A model generated the notes under the pieces. It saw nothing but the letters and a program-made list of their open reading frames with translations. It did no database searches and was not told the origin of the DNA. A stretch of 64,000 nt of DNA from Tsukamurella conjunctivitidis. Lineage in GTDB: Bacteria; Actinomycetota; Actinomycetes; Mycobacteriales; Mycobacteriaceae. The stretch lies in the NCBI RefSeq assembly GCF_007858475.1, contig NZ_VIGX01000015.1, positions 1 through 64,000 on the forward strand, in the 5' to 3' direction. Shown here piece after piece: positions 1,247 to 54,285 of the stretch. Position numbers and translations under genes: made by a program. How positions within the stretch are numbered: position 1 is the stretch's first letter; each line of letters opens with the position of its first letter.

Positions 1247-1579
1247 GTGCCGTTCGCGTCGACCACGATCCGCACTCGGCGTCGCGCTGAGGTGCGGCGT
1301 CGTGATGGTGACGCGCCGTGTGCGCTGCAGATCACCGCCGACTGCTTAGCTCTCGGCGGGCAGATCGACTACGACGCCCGCTCCCCTGACCCGCGATCGT
1401 TCGAGGTCGACCATGTTGTCAGCTCGGATGAGGCCACGCGCATGGGATGGTCGCCCGTCGAGGCGGACGCGCTGGACAACTGCCAGGGCGTCTGCCGCCA
1501 GTGCAACCGTGAGAAGTCGTCCGGTGATCGCGAGGTTGCACCGGTTCGGCCGACGTACGTGAACCCGAGATTCGCCTGA
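1247..1579 (+). CDS. HNH endonuclease (packaging-associated)
   Basis: The 110-residue protein has an HNH/beta-beta-alpha-metal layout: an early CAL.I...C pair, the core FEVDHVV (His-Asp-His type, about residues 54-60), DNCQGVCRQCN with a CxxC zinc pair, and a final basic EKSS. HNH proteins next to terminases assist terminase cutting in HK97-like phages such as HK97 gp74, a plausible role here. GTG start at 1247. The following gene encodes the putative small terminase subunit. Confidence 0.88.
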   Translation: MPFASTTIRTRRRAEVRRRDGDAPCALQITADCLALGGQIDYDARSPDPRSFEVDHVVSSDEATRMGWSPVEADALDNCQGVCRQCNREKSSGDREVAPVRPTYVNPRFA

Positions 1580-1583
1580 TCTT

Positions 1584-1640
1584 GCGCCGACCTTGGCGCG
1601 CTACGCCCACGCCGGGCGGTCAACCGGCGGTTCAGGAAGG
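1584..1640 (+). promoter_or_regulatory. structured RNA leader, copy 1
   Basis: An upstream hairpin (1584-1588 with 1595-1599) is followed by TACGCCCAC and a second hairpin: arms 1610-1615 and 1624-1629 (CGCCGG/CCGGCG) around the loop GCGGTCAA, then GGTTCAGGAAGG as Shine-Dalgarno for the ATG at 1648. Copy 2 before the scaffold gene keeps the loop and flanks while two stem pairs change with compensation (C-G to T-A, G-C to C-G). This suggests selection for RNA structure. Function unknown: translational control or an RNA-binding protein site are possibilities. Confidence 0.65.
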
Positions 1641-1647
1641 TAGTCCC

Positions 1648-1902
1648 ATGGCTAAGTACGCCACTCTCAACGACGCGATGGAAGCGAACGACGAACTGGC
1701 CGAGGCTGAGATCCGGTACCGGATGCTCGCTGAGGCGTTCGCGGAGCTGCCTCAGCTGCGGTCGCAGTTGAATGCCCAGATCGAGCGCGCCAAGGCTGAG
1801 ATCGTTCGCCTGCGTGCCCTCGCGAAGCCGAGTGACACCCCGAAGACCGATCCGGGCAACGTGGTCCCGTTCGATGCCGGCCGGTTCCGCAAGTCGAGCT
1901 AA
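1648..1902 (+). CDS. putative terminase small subunit
   Basis: An 84-residue protein directly before the large terminase. The start is the ATG at 1648, served by AGGAAGG, not the upstream in-frame ATG at 1582. The sequence is a long charged helix (residues 5-60, rich in Glu, Ala, Arg, Leu; RSQLNAQIERAKAEIVRLRAL) followed by a short tail. It is shorter than most small terminases and lacks an obvious helix-turn-helix, so assignment rests on position. It overlaps the large subunit start by 29 bp. Confidence 0.55.
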   Translation: MAKYATLNDAMEANDELAEAEIRYRMLAEAFAELPQLRSQLNAQIERAKAEIVRLRALAKPSDTPKTDPGNVVPFDAGRFRKSS

Positions 1903-3400
1903 CCCGGCACCGCTCGTTGATCTAGCTCGTCACTGTGTCATCCCCGACGACATCGCTTTCACCCGCTATGACGAACTGATCGCGCCTGAGCTGGCAGGCA
2001 TGGGCGTCACGCTGGATCGTTGGCAGGAAGACATTTGGTACGCGGCGCTCGGTGTCCGTGAGGACGGGACGCTGGCGTGCGACGTTATGGGTGTCACGTT
2101 GAGCATCAGCCGGCAGTGCGGCAAGACGTGGGGCATCATGGCCGGCCTGATCGCGATCTGCTTGTCGCGTCCGGGAACGTTGGTTATCTGGTCGTCGCAT
2201 CATGATCGGACGTCGTCGGAGACGCTGACGAAGATCGCGGGCATCGTCGAGAAGCCGGCGATCCGCCCGAAGATGCGCGCCCAGCATCCGGTTGTGATGA
2301 CGGATGACTCTCGAGGTGTGCACTTCGAGAACGGGTCGCGGATCTTGTTCGGCGCTCGAGCGTCGGGGTTCGGCCGCGGCTTCTCCGAGGTCGACGTGCA
2401 GGTGTACGACGAGTGCCAGAATCTGGTTGAGTCAGCCCTGACGGACATGCTGGCCGCGATGAACGTGTCCGACCTCGGGTTGGCGTTCTTCATGGGTACG
2501 CCGCCGCGGCCGAAGGACGTCGCGCTCGGCGTGCATGAGGCGTTCAAGCGTCGCCGGGACCGTGCGCTCGAGGAGAAGAAGCGCCGGCCGTTCAAAGGCG
2601 TGTATGCGGAGATGTCGCCCCGCGCCCCGGATGCGGTGTCCACAGACATCGACGCGCCGGGGTTCTGGGGCAACCTGTCGGACGTCAATCCGGCGTACGG
2701 GTTCCGGGTGGGCAAGTCCGCGATCGAGCGTCTGGTCGAGAACATGTCGCCCGATGACGTACGCCGCGAGGTGTTCGGCATCTGGGACAAGACGAACGAG
2801 TCGTCCGCGGTCATGCAGCGTGACGCTTGGAACGCGCTGGCGGCGGATCCTGCCGAGTTGGGCGCACCAGCGTCGTTCGGCGTGAACGCGACCCGATCGG
2901 GTTGGATCTGGATCGTCGCTTGCTGGCGTGGAGACGACGCCGCGCACGTCGAGATCGCGCTTGGAACGCAGTCGGAGTCCGAGGCGACGAGCTTCCTCAC
3001 CCGACACGCGACTCGTCGCGTTCTGGTCAAACACGATTCGACCGGTGCTGCGAAGACCGTCGGCGAGAAGCTCAAGCAGCTCGGCTACGGCGCATCCGCG
3101 TACACACAGAACGAAGTTGGAGCCGGCAATGCGCTGTGGCTCGGGATGGCAGAAGGGGGGCGACTGTCACATGGTGGACAACAGGAACTCTCCGATGCAA
3201 TTCGAGGATCACGGCGGCAGGACCGTAAATCGGGAGGGTGGACTCTGATGCCTCGTTCCGATTCGTTCGACATTGGCCCCGCGATTGCGATGTCCGCGGC
3301 CGTGTATGCGGCGATGACTTCGCGGGCTCCGACGGGTACGGGTCGTTCCGCAAGTACTGGCCGGGTCGCTTCGACCGGCCGGCGGGCTGGGGTGACGTAG
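1874..3400 (+). CDS. terminase large subunit
   Basis: A 508-residue packaging ATPase-nuclease. The Walker A-like segment is SRQCGKTWG and the Walker B-like segment VDVQVYDECQN carries the catalytic Asp-Glu. A coupling-motif-like MGTPPRP follows, and the C-terminal half should hold the RNase H-like nuclease. The frame is open further upstream to 1772, but that part only shadows the small-subunit gene; the ATG at 1874 gives a sensible N-terminus before DDIAFTRYDEL. It moves DNA into the prohead through the portal encoded immediately downstream (stop and ATG adjacent). Confidence 0.93.
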   Translation: MPAGSASRANPAPLVDLARHCVIPDDIAFTRYDELIAPELAGMGVTLDRWQEDIWYAALGVREDGTLACDVMGVTLSISRQCGKTWGIMAGLIAICLSRPGTLVIWSSHHDRTSSETLTKIAGIVEKPAIRPKMRAQHPVVMTDDSRGVHFENGSRILFGARASGFGRGFSEVDVQVYDECQNLVESALTDMLAAMNVSDLGLAFFMGTPPRPKDVALGVHEAFKRRRDRALEEKKRRPFKGVYAEMSPRAPDAVSTDIDAPGFWGNLSDVNPAYGFRVGKSAIERLVENMSPDDVRREVFGIWDKTNESSAVMQRDAWNALAADPAELGAPASFGVNATRSGWIWIVACWRGDDAAHVEIALGTQSESEATSFLTRHATRRVLVKHDSTGAAKTVGEKLKQLGYGASAYTQNEVGAGNALWLGMAEGGRLSHGGQQELSDAIRGSRRQDRKSGGWTLMPRSDSFDIGPAIAMSAAVYAAMTSRAPTGTGRSASTGRVASTGRRAGVT

Positions 3401-4834
3401 ATGGGCCAGACGAACGTGCGGATCCCTGGGCTCACTGTCGACGAAAACAGTCTCGTCAACGGCCTTTTAAAGCAGATCGACGACCTGCGTATAAGTAACA
3501 TGCTGAGGACGTCGTACTACGAGAACAAGCGGTCCATCCGGCAAGTCGGCACCCTGATCCCGCCGCAGTACTACAACCTGGGCCTGGTCCTCGGTTGGAC
3601 CGGCAAGGCGGTCGACGCGCTCTCGCGCCGATGCAACCTCGAGGGGTTTGTGTGGCCTGACGGCGACCTGGCGAGCATCGGCGGCGACGATGTGTGGGAC
3701 GACAATCACCTGTCATCCGAAACCGACAGTGCGATCGTGTCTGCTCTCCAGCACGGGCCGGCGTTCCTCATCAACACAGTCGGCGATGACGATGAGCCTG
3801 ACGCGCTGATCCACATTAAGGACGCCACGGAGGCCACCGGTGAATGGAACCGTCGTCGCCGGCACCTCGACAACCTGCTGTCGGTGATCGACAAGGACAA
3901 GGAAGACAACATCCTTGCTCTGGCGTTGTATCTCGACGGACAGACTATTACGGCGCAGCGAGACAAGGCATCGCACAAGTGGCAGGTCGACCGGACGGAC
4001 CACGTCTACGGCGTCCCCGCTGAGGTGCTGCCGTACAAGCCTGCACCGAAGCGGCCGTTCGGGCAGTCTCGGATCACGCGGCCCATGATGGGCCTGCAGG
4101 ACGCCGGCGTTCGTGCGTTGCAGCGTCGTGAGGGGCACATGGATGTGTACTCCTACCCTGAGGCGTGGCTTCTCGGTGCCGACGAGTCGGTGTTCAAGAA
4201 CGCAGACGGCACGCAGCGCGACATGTGGAACATCCGCCTTGGTCGCATCAAGGGCATCAACGACGACAAGGACGAGGCGAACCCTCAGCTGGCGCGCGCC
4301 GATGTCAAGCAGTTCCCGGCGTCGAGCCCGGAGCCGCATTGGGCGGACATCAACGGCCTGTCGAAGCTGTTCGCTCGAGAGTCGGGGTTGCCTGACAGTG
4401 CGTTGGCGATCAGCGACATGGTCAACCCGACCTCAGCTGAGTCGTACGACTCGTCGCAGTACGAGTTGATCGCGGAGGCTGAGGGCGCTGTCGATAACTT
4501 CACGCCGGCCCTGCGGAGCTCGTTCGTGCGCGCGCTGGCGATGCGGAACGGCATCGCCCTCAAGGACATCCCGAACGCGTGGAAGTCGATCGACGCTCAG
4601 TGGCGGAACCCGCGGTATCTGGCTCGCTCGGCGGTCGCGGATGCTGGCATGAAGCAGCTGTCCATCGCGCCTGAGCTTGCTGGCACTGAGGTGGGGTACG
4701 AACTGCTCGGCCTGACGCCGCAGCAGATCAAGCGGGCGATGGCGGATCGTCGACGCTCGACTGGACGTGCCGTGCTCGAGGCCCTTCGTCAGCCCGCGGT
4801 GACCGCAGATGACAACGCCGACCGAGCTTCGTAG
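3401..4834 (+). CDS. phage portal protein
   Basis: A 477-residue protein of the SPP1 gp6-like portal family, expected to form the dodecameric ring at the head vertex through which DNA enters and to which the connectors bind. Its position between large terminase and a MuF-type protein, the length, and features such as the N-terminal YYNLGLVLGWTGKAVDALS and the central helix with SAESYDSSQYELIAEAE support this. ATG follows the terminase stop with no gap; its 3' end overlaps the next gene by 26 bp. Confidence 0.92.
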   Translation: MGQTNVRIPGLTVDENSLVNGLLKQIDDLRISNMLRTSYYENKRSIRQVGTLIPPQYYNLGLVLGWTGKAVDALSRRCNLEGFVWPDGDLASIGGDDVWDDNHLSSETDSAIVSALQHGPAFLINTVGDDDEPDALIHIKDATEATGEWNRRRRHLDNLLSVIDKDKEDNILALALYLDGQTITAQRDKASHKWQVDRTDHVYGVPAEVLPYKPAPKRPFGQSRITRPMMGLQDAGVRALQRREGHMDVYSYPEAWLLGADESVFKNADGTQRDMWNIRLGRIKGINDDKDEANPQLARADVKQFPASSPEPHWADINGLSKLFARESGLPDSALAISDMVNPTSAESYDSSQYELIAEAEGAVDNFTPALRSSFVRALAMRNGIALKDIPNAWKSIDAQWRNPRYLARSAVADAGMKQLSIAPELAGTEVGYELLGLTPQQIKRAMADRRRSTGRAVLEALRQPAVTADDNADRAS

Positions 4835-5477
4835 TTCGCTGATCCGTCTGAGCGACAACGCTGAGGCAGATCTCGCGGCACTGTGGGCGAAGCTCGACGC
4901 AGCCACGGTCAGTGACGCGATGTTCGAGGTGATGCCTGCTCTGGTCGCCGACTACGGCGACGCGGCGGCCACCCTGACCGCCGAGTGGTATGAGGCGTAT
5001 CGCGCCGCGATCAACGTTGCTGGCGCGTACTCAGCCTCGCTGACCACCATCGACCTGGGGGCGAACGCACTCGCCGGTTGGGCCGTCGATCTGGCTCGCA
5101 TCAACTGGGATACCGCGCTCGCTCAGATTTCGGGCGGCTTGGTGAAGCGGGTGATGACCGCGAGCCGGCAGACCATCGTGGACAACACCGATCAGGATCC
5201 GCGGACGGCCGGGTGGATGCGAGTTGGCCGGCCGCAATGCGGCTGGTGCGCGATGCTGATTTCCCGCGGCGACGTGTACCGGAGTCGGGAGACTGCTGAC
5301 TTCGCGGCGCATGACAACTGCAAGTGCGCTTGCAGCCCCGCGTGGGATCAGTCGCAGATCACCTCGGTGCGTAGGGAGTTCGTGCCTACCGCCCGCCGCC
5401 GGTCCGAGAAGGCGACCGAGGCTGACCGCGCTCGAGCTAAGGCTTGGATCGCAAAGAATCTTCCCGTCACGTCGTGA
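4809..5477 (+). CDS. MuF-like minor head protein
   Basis: 222 residues. The C-terminal third carries the signature of the actinophage MuF/VG15-type capsid protein: CGWCAMLISRGDVYRS then HDNCKC, giving a Cys/His cluster. The N-terminal part is helical. These proteins sit inside the head near the portal and take part in head morphogenesis, sometimes fused to proteases or toxins; none is fused here. Start ATG lies inside the portal gene. An 8-bp hairpin (5463-5470 with 5474-5481) spans its stop codon and begins the next leader. Confidence 0.88.
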   Translation: MTTPTELRSSLIRLSDNAEADLAALWAKLDAATVSDAMFEVMPALVADYGDAAATLTAEWYEAYRAAINVAGAYSASLTTIDLGANALAGWAVDLARINWDTALAQISGGLVKRVMTASRQTIVDNTDQDPRTAGWMRVGRPQCGWCAMLISRGDVYRSRETADFAAHDNCKCACSPAWDQSQITSVRREFVPTARRRSEKATEADRARAKAWIAKNLPVTS

Positions 5478-5522
5478 CGGGGTTACGCCCACGTCCGGCG
5501 GTCAACGGACGGATCAGGAGAT
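5463..5522 (+). promoter_or_regulatory. structured RNA leader, copy 2
   Basis: First hairpin CCCGTCAC-GTC-GTGACGGG (5463-5481), then TTACGCCCAC and a second hairpin with arms 5492-5497 and 5506-5511 (CGTCCG/CGGACG) around GCGGTCAA, then GGATCAGGAG before the scaffold ATG at 5528. It matches copy 1 over about 31 of 36 positions, with loop and flanks fixed and two stem pairs changed compensatorily. Confidence 0.65.
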
Positions 5523-5527
5523 AACAC

Positions 5528-6076
5528 ATGTCTGACGCAGTTGAAGGAACCGTTGAGGACCAGGGCGCCGAGGCGCCGGTTCAGGAGTCCGCCAAGGACG
5601 AGAGTGCCGGCAAGACGTTCACCCAGGACGAGGTCAACAAGCTGATCGGCGCGACGCGGACCGAGGAGCGAAACAAGGCCGCGACCAAGTACGCCGACTA
5701 CAACGACCTCAAGCAGGCAGCGGAGGGCAAGAAGTCCGCCGACGACCGCATCGCCGAGCTGGAGAGCAAGTACGCGAAGTCCGAAGCAAACGCGCTTCGT
5801 CTCCGCGTCGCTGGCGACTTCGGCATCAGCACCAAACGCGGCGCCGACGGCGAACCGTCCGACGCCGAGCTGTTCCTCACCGGAACCGACGAGGAAACCC
5901 TCACAGCTCAGGCAGCACGGCTCGCTGCACGGAATGCCGAGCAGGCGAAGGCCGAAGCCGAGCGGAAGAAGAAAAGCCCGATCGTGTCCAAGGAGGGCAC
6001 GTCAACACAGGGAACGACCACCGAAGAGGACGACCGCGAGTTCGCGCGGGCGTTCTTCCACGGGGGAAGTTCCTAA
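5528..6076 (+). CDS. capsid scaffolding protein
   Basis: A 182-residue, highly charged, helical protein typical of phage scaffolds. It has an acidic disordered N-terminus, a DEVNKLIGATRTEER core often seen in actinophage scaffolds, a coiled-coil stretch (KKSADDRIAELESKYAK) and a C-terminal helix likely to contact the capsid protein. It should fill the prohead and leave or be degraded before packaging; no separate protease gene is seen. It lies 18 bp before the major capsid gene and is preceded by the structured leader. Confidence 0.9.
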   Translation: MSDAVEGTVEDQGAEAPVQESAKDESAGKTFTQDEVNKLIGATRTEERNKAATKYADYNDLKQAAEGKKSADDRIAELESKYAKSEANALRLRVAGDFGISTKRGADGEPSDAELFLTGTDEETLTAQAARLAARNAEQAKAEAERKKKSPIVSKEGTSTQGTTTEEDDREFARAFFHGGSS

Positions 6077-30666: not shown

Positions 30667-32025
30667 ATGTCCTCCGCACGGCGGCGCACCGTCGCCCTCC
30701 TCGCCCTGTCGGTGGCGTTCGGACTGATCCAGTTCGACGCCACCGTCGTCAACGTCGTCCTGGGGTCCATGACCCGCGACCTGGGCGGCGGCCTCGGGCT
30801 CGCGCAGTGGGCGGTCGACGGGTACGCGATCCCGTTCGCGGCACTGATGCTGCTCGCGGGCCCTGCGGCGGACCGTTTCGGACGGAGGAGGGTCTGCGTC
30901 CTCGGTTTCGCGCTGTTCGCACTGTCCACCGCGGCGTGCGCACTCGCTCCCGCCTGGCCCGCGCTGATCGCCTCGCGGGTGCTGCAGGGCGTGGCCGCGG
31001 CGATGATCCTGCCGAGTTCCCTGGCGATGATCGGCGAGCTGTACCCGGGCACTGCGGAGCGCGCCCGCGCGCTCGGGGTGTGGGGCGGCATCGCCAGTGC
31101 CGGCTTCGCCGCGGGACCGCCGATCGGCGGACTACTCGCCGCGAGCACCGGCTGGCGCGCCGTGTTCTGGGTGGGCACGCCGATCGCGATCCTGGCCGGC
31201 ATCGCCGTGCTGGTCACGGTGCCGGACTCACCCCGACACTCCCGTCCGCTCGATATCCGCGGCGCGACGGTGGGCGCCGTCGCCCTCGGCCTCGGCACCG
31301 CAGGGCTGATCGAACTCGGGCAGGCGCGCGCCGGGCTCGCGCTGGCACTCCTCGTCGCGACGGCCGCCGCCGCCTGGGCATTCCGCGCGGCACAGCGCAC
31401 CGCCACCGCGCCGATGATCCCGCGCGGCATGCTGGCGCCGGGGCCGTTCCGTGGAGCGGTGGTGACCGGGCTGGTCTTCAACTTCGCGCTCTACGGCGCG
31501 CTGCTCGTCGTCGGCCTGGCGCTCCAGGACGTCCACGGCTTCTCCGTCCTGCAGACCGGCACGGCGATCCTGCCGATGACCGTCGTGGTCGCGTTCGGCT
31601 CCATCGCCAGCGGCTTCGTCACCGCGCGGACCGGGCCCCGGGCGCCGATGGTCGCCGGCTTCACGAGCGCGGCGGTCGGGGCGGTCGTCGTCGCCCTCGG
31701 GGCGGCGCACCCCGCCGCAGTCGTCATCGGGATGGGGTTGATCGGGCTCGGCTCCCTCGCGATGCCCGCCATGACCGCGGTCGCGCTCAGCGCGGCCCCC
31801 GTCGACCACGCGGGTCTCGCGGGTGCCGTGCTCAACTGCGCCCGGCAGGCGGGTGGCGCGCTCGGCGTCGCCGGCTTCGGCGCGTTGTACAACGCCGCGG
31901 GCCGGTCCTCGAGCGCACTGGCGCTGACCCTCGCGACGGTCGCGGCCATACTCGTGGTCGGGGTGTGCACCAGCATCGGCGCCACTGCGACGAATCGGAC
32001 GGAGGCGGGCTGCGATGTCGGGTGA
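30667..32025 (+). CDS. MFS drug exporter, DHA2 (14-TM) family
   Basis: 452 residues with about 14 hydrophobic helices. The loop 2-3 signature GPAADRFGRRRV and motif C-like GPPIGGLLA are visible, as in proton-driven multidrug exporters. The N-terminus starts just before helix 1 (RRTVALLALSVAFGLIQFD). The gene overlaps the downstream HTH regulator by 11 bp, so they form an operon, and that regulator may control the exporter. First intact chromosomal gene after attR. Confidence 0.9.
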   Translation: MSSARRRTVALLALSVAFGLIQFDATVVNVVLGSMTRDLGGGLGLAQWAVDGYAIPFAALMLLAGPAADRFGRRRVCVLGFALFALSTAACALAPAWPALIASRVLQGVAAAMILPSSLAMIGELYPGTAERARALGVWGGIASAGFAAGPPIGGLLAASTGWRAVFWVGTPIAILAGIAVLVTVPDSPRHSRPLDIRGATVGAVALGLGTAGLIELGQARAGLALALLVATAAAAWAFRAAQRTATAPMIPRGMLAPGPFRGAVVTGLVFNFALYGALLVVGLALQDVHGFSVLQTGTAILPMTVVVAFGSIASGFVTARTGPRAPMVAGFTSAAVGAVVVALGAAHPAAVVIGMGLIGLGSLAMPAMTAVALSAAPVDHAGLAGAVLNCARQAGGALGVAGFGALYNAAGRSSSALALTLATVAAILVVGVCTSIGATATNRTEAGCDVG

Positions 32026-54110: not shown

Positions 54111-54285
54111 TGCGGCTCCTGCTCGTGGGACGGGGCGTTCGAAGTAGATCCTGCTCCTCGATGCAACGCCGCGCACGGCGATCTGCTTCCCGCGCGGGCA
54201 CGGCGCGCCGCCGGGTGGCATTGTGGGACGGGTCGAGCCGGTCCGCCCGGCACCCTGTCCGTCGAGCCAAGAAGGAGCCTCACCT

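Follow-up and report, generated by a model that had tools for sequence, protein, structure and literature searches.

Why does the same folded element stand ahead of two different phage structural genes? The question is posed by 64,000 nucleotides of Tsukamurella conjunctivitidis DNA (contig NZ_VIGX01000015.1, positions 1 to 64,000; hereafter the window), where two hairpins joined by a linker precede the Shine-Dalgarno sequences of a small terminase gene and a head scaffolding protein gene. Comparison with relatives indicates that the core of this family is an H-type pseudoknot, formed between the linker and the hairpin 2 loop. We propose, at a probability of roughly 45%, that the leader serves as a translational operator of the head scaffold gene, most likely autogenous, acting through the scaffold N-terminus, and repressing.

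Two copies in the window and their relatives

The initial annotation described one layout occurring twice, and both copies can be read directly (positions 1583-1640 and 5462-5520): hairpin 1, a TACGCC linker, a 6-bp hairpin with an identical 8-nt loop and a Shine-Dalgarno sequence. Two stem pairs differ between the copies with compensation, just as noted there, and the identities given to the putative small terminase (1648) and scaffold (5528) are borne out by PHROGs. The shared pattern TACGCCCACGNNNNGCGGTCAA, searched with up to three mismatches, occurs only at 1602 and 5484 in the 64 kb, exactly in both places; the mean expected by chance is 0.14 and two or more were obtained in 2 of 100 shuffles. 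By itself the 8-mer loop GCGGTCAA is unremarkable in the window (2 found, 3.16 expected), and folding energy alone gives a weak signal for copy 1 (z -0.65) and a moderate one for copy 2 (z -2.15).

Rfam 15 gave no match within the window at the gathering score; on Avani (L006) and L083, with E-values up to 5 admitted, there were three matches, none on the element. Phage records with relatives number 45 for the small-terminase copy (29 from Gordonia, 14 from Mycobacterium and 2 from Microbacterium) and 19 for the scaffold copy (14 from Mycobacterium, 3 from Gordonia and 2 from Rhodococcus). IMG/VR was scanned with the pattern TACGCCNACNNNNNNCGGTCAA, and bacterial genome contigs were scanned by pattern separately. 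Among the matches listed, all six pairs of hairpin 2 are formed in 97 of 133 that derive from phage (overlapping records included) and in 4 of 119 on the bacterial contigs. Two of these four are in L196 (Mycobacterium sp. DL99), one in L184 and one in L215 (Curtobacterium luteum). L184 (NYZC01000117.1), assigned to a Phycisphaeraceae metagenome-assembled genome, agrees with the viral contig L089 (IMGVR_UViG_2786546904) in element and flanks, both being 40548 bases long; it is probably a phage contig that was misbinned.

Covariance model R1, built from the 69 copies described below, scores the window copies at 67.8 and 66.3 bits, values that are high by construction, with the next match in the window at 12.7. 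ReT1v-1 has one strong match to it, the window two and Avani two within 50 kb. When it was applied to 397 genomes of the order, 40 had matches at E <= 0.01, and scores above 30 bits occurred only in the window's own assembly; we read the matches in other host genomes as chance. A BLAST search with the leader of phage Asapag returned 170 records, 26 of them Gordonia, and among the 60 listed the Mycobacterium rows were 25-base matches in other genes.

Removal of rows more than 90% identical left a set of 69 copies, of which three have a bulged stem. Viral or phage records contributed 65 of the 69 and L196 two, and the remaining two represent the window. The search patterns fixed the linker (TACGCC) and most of the loop, so the invariance of these letters in the set is not evidence. 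The stems were free to vary. In hairpin 2, 98.6% of 414 cells are paired, and two-sided changes number 119 cells against 38.3 in shuffles, with none of 500 shuffles reaching either the count or the covariation score. The two hairpins together give 155 two-sided cells against 54.5, again with 0 of 500 as high. Hairpin 1 is paired in 74.6% of cells, a value lowered in part, we think, because its arms are misregistered in the alignment. The number of pairs showing two-sided change (5 of 6 in hairpin 2, 11 of 12 in both hairpins) was reached by 414 and 49 of 500 shuffles, respectively; since shuffles reach it so often it is uninformative and we rely on cell counts and scores. With further copies in related phages, in which covariation persists, the initial annotation's deduction of selection on RNA structure now extends well beyond two copies, the linker:loop test described below included.

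These compensated changes in the stem arms bear on whether the element is instead a DNA-level site for an operator, recombination or packaging, its RNA fold incidental. The small-terminase copy does lie near the left end of the genome, where packaging sites occur (in Avani the end of the record is 0.4 kb away); the scaffold copy lies 4 kb further in, and with the stem compensation this makes a DNA site scarcely credible.

A pseudoknot between linker and loop

In Asapag-type Gordonia phages, Lucky10 and the Arthrobacter phage Pitbull, a second version of the element ahead of the scaffold gene has a linker, AGCGC, exactly complementary to the start of the loop, GCGCT. A second set of loci was fetched by capsid homology, which left linker and loop free to vary, and the best 80 of 425 relatives were taken. 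All 21 capsids used as queries derive from loci bearing the element, and the pattern-derived set already included 11 of the 80 contigs, so the second set is blind to the linker and loop letters but gives no fair estimate of prevalence. It provided 76 regions ahead of a presumed scaffold frame, 59 of them non-redundant, with the frame or its start wrong in about ten.

Hairpin 2 was chosen without regard to the linker, as a stem of at least 5 pairs and a loop of 7-9 nt ending in AA. Of 97 regions (the 76 together with 21 from named phages and the window) 55 satisfy this rule, yielding 32 distinct linker/loop rows. Mean complementarity between linker and loop is 11.72, compared to 8.98 (standard deviation 0.37) when loops are reassigned to other linkers, and none of 2000 permutations is as high even with two wrong picks (L368 and L383) retained in the count. 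The pairings include the types AGCGC:GCGCT, AACGT:ACGTT, AACGC:GCGTT, ACGT:ACGT and GCGT:ACGC, with CCG:CGG and CTG:CAG outside the AA-ended rule. The wrong picks were dropped from the aligned rows used for covariation, 27 rows chosen by us as the 5-bp linker type and leaving out the subfamily of the window. Here 93.3% of 135 cells are paired and two of five pairs show two-sided change (G-C to A-U, C-G to U-A); the cells so changed number 7, compared to 1.9 in shuffles, and none of 500 shuffles is as high. The GCGC-like strands allow a register shifted by +2 to reach much the same covariation score (0.250, compared to 0.236), 62% of its cells being paired. Of the two tests the permutation is the stronger.

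Stem 1 is mostly 3-6 bp, the crossing loop 2-3 nt and stem 2 5-6 bp, with the loop often ending in CAA. Such geometry is that of a classical H-type pseudoknot. In the subfamily of the window the best pairing is CGC:GCG (3 bp), possibly with an A:U pair across a bulged G; because neither strand varies there, the pseudoknot is assigned to this subfamily by homology. In copy 1 the linker bases CGC at 1604-1606 are proposed to pair with loop bases GCG at 1616-1618, and A1603 may perhaps also pair with T1620.

Many relatives carry a third hairpin. A hairpin of at least three pairs with a GACG loop occurs within the last 60 nt of 32 of 69 non-redundant upstream regions, the next commonest loop being present in 10. 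Its stems compensate (GTCC/GGAC, GTGC/GCAC, GTTC/GAAC, GGCC/GGCC, ACCT/AGGT and GCG/CGC), and ACGG follows within 8 nt on the 3' side in 29 of the 32. The window copies lack it. The plain hairpins described initially are present, but that description missed the pseudoknot core, and many relatives add this third hairpin.

Other arrangements were seen. DyoEdafos (L305:1731-1766) and Bromden (L306:1587-1623), more distant mycobacteriophages from another subfamily, Lclasvirinae, have an ACGCG:CGCGT pseudoknot before the scaffold gene without the rest of the consensus, possibly a member of the same family or a case of convergence. L017:517-640 seems to hold a pseudoknot followed by the beginning of a second leader, and at L357:1880-2020 a pseudoknot is followed by a leader in the style of type B, defined below; both composites may be products of recombination. 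Pairing of the linker with the ribosome-binding site was considered as a general switch and rejected, the complementarity over 64 copies being matched by 167 of 1000 permutations; both window copies do show such pairing when folded to minimum energy.

The genes served and the candidate ligand

The element keeps a narrow distance from start codons. A downstream frame, sought on the copy's own strand and within 75 nt, begins after 68 of the 69 copies (L017 is without a clear frame). The start codon lies 13-22 nt after hairpin 2 in 64 of the 68 and 31-38 nt after it in four, which contain third-hairpin sequence. The Shine-Dalgarno reported initially holds up, with a match of at least four letters in 67 of 68 copies; its letters, TCAGGA, are unconserved among relatives. 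The downstream genes are 59 scaffolds and 9 small terminases or genes in that place, in a set that was fetched by pattern and includes many partial contigs. These calls rest on sequence resemblance rather than a family search: 56 scaffolds were recognized by an N-terminal expression (type A, below) and three by eye, and L083 and L113 are counted with the small terminases by position only. Co-regulation of selected virion proteins, as first suggested, fits phages that have two copies; in the set, scaffold copies outnumber those before small terminases or genes in that position.

The copies are located at sub-operon boundaries of the late operon. This would suit a boundary of mRNA processing or stability, with cleavage at the hairpins, or a pseudoknot that stops a 5'-3' exonuclease, uncoupling the abundant scaffold-capsid message from that for terminase, portal and MuF; folded 5' ends do protect messages. 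Such a role predicts neither the 13-22 nt spacing nor the link to the scaffold N-terminus described below. No copy was found 5' of the major tail protein gene, whose product is also abundant, in the window, Avani, ODay, Malisha or ReT1v-1, and we consider this explanation unlikely. A cis-acting antitermination RNA resembling the put sites of phage HK022, which are two hairpins, would account for the tandem hairpin pair, the two sites per genome in two-copy phages and the long operon. Against it are the narrow spacing to the start codon and the single internal copy in phages such as ReT1v-1; a pseudoknot and a third hairpin are not features of put, and this possibility is very unlikely.

Does the leader vary with any protein encoded nearby? 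While scaffolds with and without the pseudoknot were being compared two N-terminal types were noticed and expressions for them written afterwards, so the test is post hoc. Type A has a basic segment, for example RIVRERVQRERAKYADYDDLKAKA; type B conforms to an RxxExRAK-like expression, mostly with a W shortly before. The 59 non-redundant regions comprise 39 type A, 10 type B and 10 unclassified. In type A the AA-ended pseudoknot is present in 32, four match a looser rule only (L331, L345, L352 and L395) and three have neither form: L349, with a mismatched stem by eye, and L373 and L403, where the starts seem wrong. Eight of the type B regions have no pseudoknot; L382 has a looser-rule match that we think spurious and L357 an AA-ended pseudoknot in its composite leader. 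Eight of the unclassified regions look like wrong frames, the others being one scaffold without a pseudoknot (L344) and one with it (L364). The AA-ended pseudoknot thus accompanies 32 of 39 type A but 1 of 10 type B scaffolds (Fisher p = 4.7e-5).

Type B leaders have a hairpin of their own. All 10 type B regions have the pattern CCCGnA(A)[C/T]GGG within the final 60 nt before the scaffold, and none of the 39 type A or 10 unclassified regions does; the pattern was written after reading these leaders and is also post hoc. The hairpin lies near the ribosome-binding site (L332, L341, L348, L356, L357, L358, L363, L368, L382 and L404) and is a possible second class of operator. A stretch similar to it was observed in phiGD21-1 (L304) and PhorbesPhlower (L303); in these two only a stretch that occurs by chance, DHPLVK, fits the type A expression, and neither has a pseudoknot.

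Leader and scaffold N-terminus change together while flanking genes remain similar. L363 (type B) and L385 (type A, with the AA-ended pseudoknot) share 97% identity in the capsid and 73% in the scaffold C-terminus but 35% over 31 residues at the N-terminus; no MuF match was found for this pair, the MuF perhaps having been mis-picked. For L341 and L359 the capsids are 90% identical and MuF 55%, and the N-termini have no match. L382 compared with L395, L398 and L408 gives 84-86% for MuF, 97-98% for capsid and 58-59% for the scaffold C-terminus, with N-termini again without a match, although the contrast between the leaders of L382 and L395 is weaker since L395 has the looser form of the pseudoknot and the rule for that form is triggered by L382 as well.

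Could the same leader control translation by binding something else, such as the capsid protein, MuF, small terminase, a host protein, or the ribosome itself at a standby or enhancer site? A position just 5' of the Shine-Dalgarno suits any translational operator, and two-copy phages have the element before the small terminase as well. Leader classes nevertheless differ where the capsid is 97% identical (L363/L385) and MuF 55-62% (L341/L359, L358/L366) or, in the weaker contrast, 86% (L382/L395). Because they are similar across leader classes, capsid and MuF predict the leader less well than does the scaffold N-terminus, and we regard another ligand as rather doubtful.

We favour a translational operator for the scaffold because of the narrow spacing to the Shine-Dalgarno, the assembly genes downstream and the way the leader tracks one encoded segment. 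The mRNA leader would act in cis and consist of hairpin 1, the H-type pseudoknot, in many relatives the GACG hairpin, and then the Shine-Dalgarno, controlling initiation of translation of the head scaffold gene. The basic N-terminal segment of free scaffold (type A) would attach to the folded RNA and block the ribosome, so that scaffold is made only while procapsid assembly consumes it; in some phages a second copy would place the small-terminase gene under the same control. There is precedent for autogenous control in phage P22, where the scaffolding protein represses its own synthesis post-transcriptionally. A translational control element, as first suggested, is the best reading of the conserved fold, its position at start sites and the association with the scaffold N-terminus; that translation is the regulated step, scaffold the ligand and repression the direction we infer from these comparisons. 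More tentatively, leaders and N-termini may be lock-and-key cassettes swapped as units between phages with similar flanking genes, the pseudoknot (often with the GACG hairpin) and the CCCGnACGGG-type hairpin each matched to one of two unrelated basic N-terminal segments, with procapsid assembly regulating its own supply and the second copy adding DNA packaging.

Several observations weigh against the scaffold proposal. Both the N-terminal types and the CCCG hairpin took their definition from the very sequences in which they were counted, and the rows are related by descent. Leader and scaffold N-terminus adjoin, and linkage alone could yield their association; our confidence in the scaffold as ligand is tempered because linkage of neighbours can explain the co-change without function. 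The looser rule, the only one that four of the seven type A exceptions match, also fires on L382 (type B) and two of the 10 unclassified regions; the other three exceptions match nothing. L357 has a pseudoknot with a type B scaffold. No pseudoknot is recognisable in the named phages Keshu (type A) and Rando14 (type A-like), the scaffold leader of Bobi is strongly diverged, and DyoEdafos and Bromden have a pseudoknot yet miss the type A expression. As regards the fold, the pseudoknot strands of the GCGGTCAA subfamily do not covary and offer 3 bp, perhaps a fourth across the bulge. Against shuffled single sequences the pseudoknot descriptor reaches p <= 0.02 in 13 of 80 regions and p <= 0.05 in 28 of 80, with 0.059 for the window. 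Energies from ViennaRNA, which does not consider pseudoknots, are unremarkable in four of five leaders, and hairpin 2 is unfolded in L402 and L331.

Comparison with known systems and the window locus

The T4 gene 32 mRNA pseudoknot is an autogenous translational operator. The present family shares with it an H-type pseudoknot in the 5' leader close to the start codon of a phage gene (for the window copies by homology only) and, in our proposal, binding by the gene's own product. Sequence, genes and hosts differ, a hairpin precedes the pseudoknot and often a third follows, and binding here is a prediction. P22 resembles it in the gene concerned and in post-transcriptional feedback as the proposed logic, but belongs to an unrelated phage lineage, for which no defined RNA pseudoknot is known to us. 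Leaders of the ribosomal-protein S15/rpsO type also place a pseudoknot near the ribosome-binding site, where it serves feedback; that gene is cellular and its Shine-Dalgarno lies inside the fold, whereas here it lies 3' of it. To our knowledge the matching of scaffold supply to capsid assembly has been worked out in few phage systems. A structured RNA without a match in Rfam fronts a core assembly gene in phages of Mycobacterium, Gordonia, Arthrobacter and Rhodococcus. Together with its variants, a possible ligand and the combinations of leader and N-terminus found in nature, it is now set out for direct testing.

An analogy with the SAS/ESAS repeats of Cluster K mycobacteriophages had been drawn. 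These are start-associated repeats of conserved sequence with 17-bp inverted arms, found at many genes of many families (PMC3203893). The likeness extends to repeated, start-associated inverted repeats in actinophages; it is a loose one, since here the arms are unconserved in sequence and vary with compensation, and one or two strong sites serve only scaffold and small-terminase(-position) genes rather than many. The 13-bp SAS consensus 5'-GGGATAGGAGCCC, with two mismatches allowed, has 2 matches in the 64 kb against 1.77 expected, neither near the element. The STAXI motif (PMC2864571) consists of tandem pseudoknots near genes for SSB, topoisomerase and integrase and is likewise a pseudoknot RNA close to genes for nucleic-acid-binding proteins; the present leaders have one pseudoknot each, L017 being the one case that looks tandem, and precede scaffold or small-terminase(-position) genes. 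No description of the element was found in the literature searched, which included the available parts of PMC3203893, PMC7302621 and PMC2864571 and covered subscription papers and structured-RNA surveys thinly.

The window is the first part of a 95-kb contig in a bacterial assembly of 5.07 Mb and 343 contigs. By PHROGs the gene order at the locus is HNH endonuclease, small terminase, large terminase, portal, MuF/protease, scaffold and capsid (Table 1). The scaffold gene product (5528..6076) has no Pfam match.

Table 1. Leader features and adjoining genes in the window
Feature	Position	Strand	Basis and remarks
Copy 1 hairpin 1 (TGCGCCG-ACCT-TGGCGCG)	1583..1600	+	Sequence; present in minimum free energy fold; pairs vary two-sidedly in relatives
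Copy 1 linker, TACGCC core	1601..1609	+	Pairing proposed from relatives with covarying linker and loop
Copy 1 hairpin 2, putative pseudoknot stem 2 (CGCCGG / GCGGTCAA / CCGGCG)	1610..1629	+	Loop 1616-1623; covariation in 69 copies
Copy 1 Shine-Dalgarno, small-terminase gene	1634..1640	+	Sequence; ATG at 1648
Copy 2 hairpin 1	5462..5482	+	Sequence; covariation; 3' arm contains MuF/protease stop codon 5475-5477
Copy 2 linker, TACGCC core	5483..5491	+	5486-5488 proposed to pair with loop 5498-5500, from relatives
Copy 2 hairpin 2, putative pseudoknot stem 2 (CGTCCG / GCGGTCAA / CGGACG)	5492..5511	+	Loop 5498-5505; sequence, covariation
Copy 2 Shine-Dalgarno, scaffold gene	5516..5520	+	Sequence; ATG at 5528
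HNH endonuclease gene	1247..1579	+	phrog_338; Pfam HNH; directly 5' of small-terminase copy
Small terminase gene	1648..1902	+	phrog_4479, E 1.5e-41
MuF-like / head maturation protease gene	4809..5477	+	phrog_193, E 2.6e-40; Pfam VG15; directly 5' of scaffold copy
Head scaffolding protein gene	5528..6076	+	phrog_3760, E 2.4e-25; type A N-terminus (TFTQDEVNKLIG...KYADYNDLK)

Phage genes extend to a lysin (Pfam amidase) at about 26.6 kb. From about 30 kb on the genes look chromosomal, among them an MFS transporter at 30667 and an M1 peptidase at 54223 (Pfam). Because phage genes give way to apparently chromosomal ones (window 27000-64000), the phage part of the window is probably a prophage interrupted by the end of the contig.

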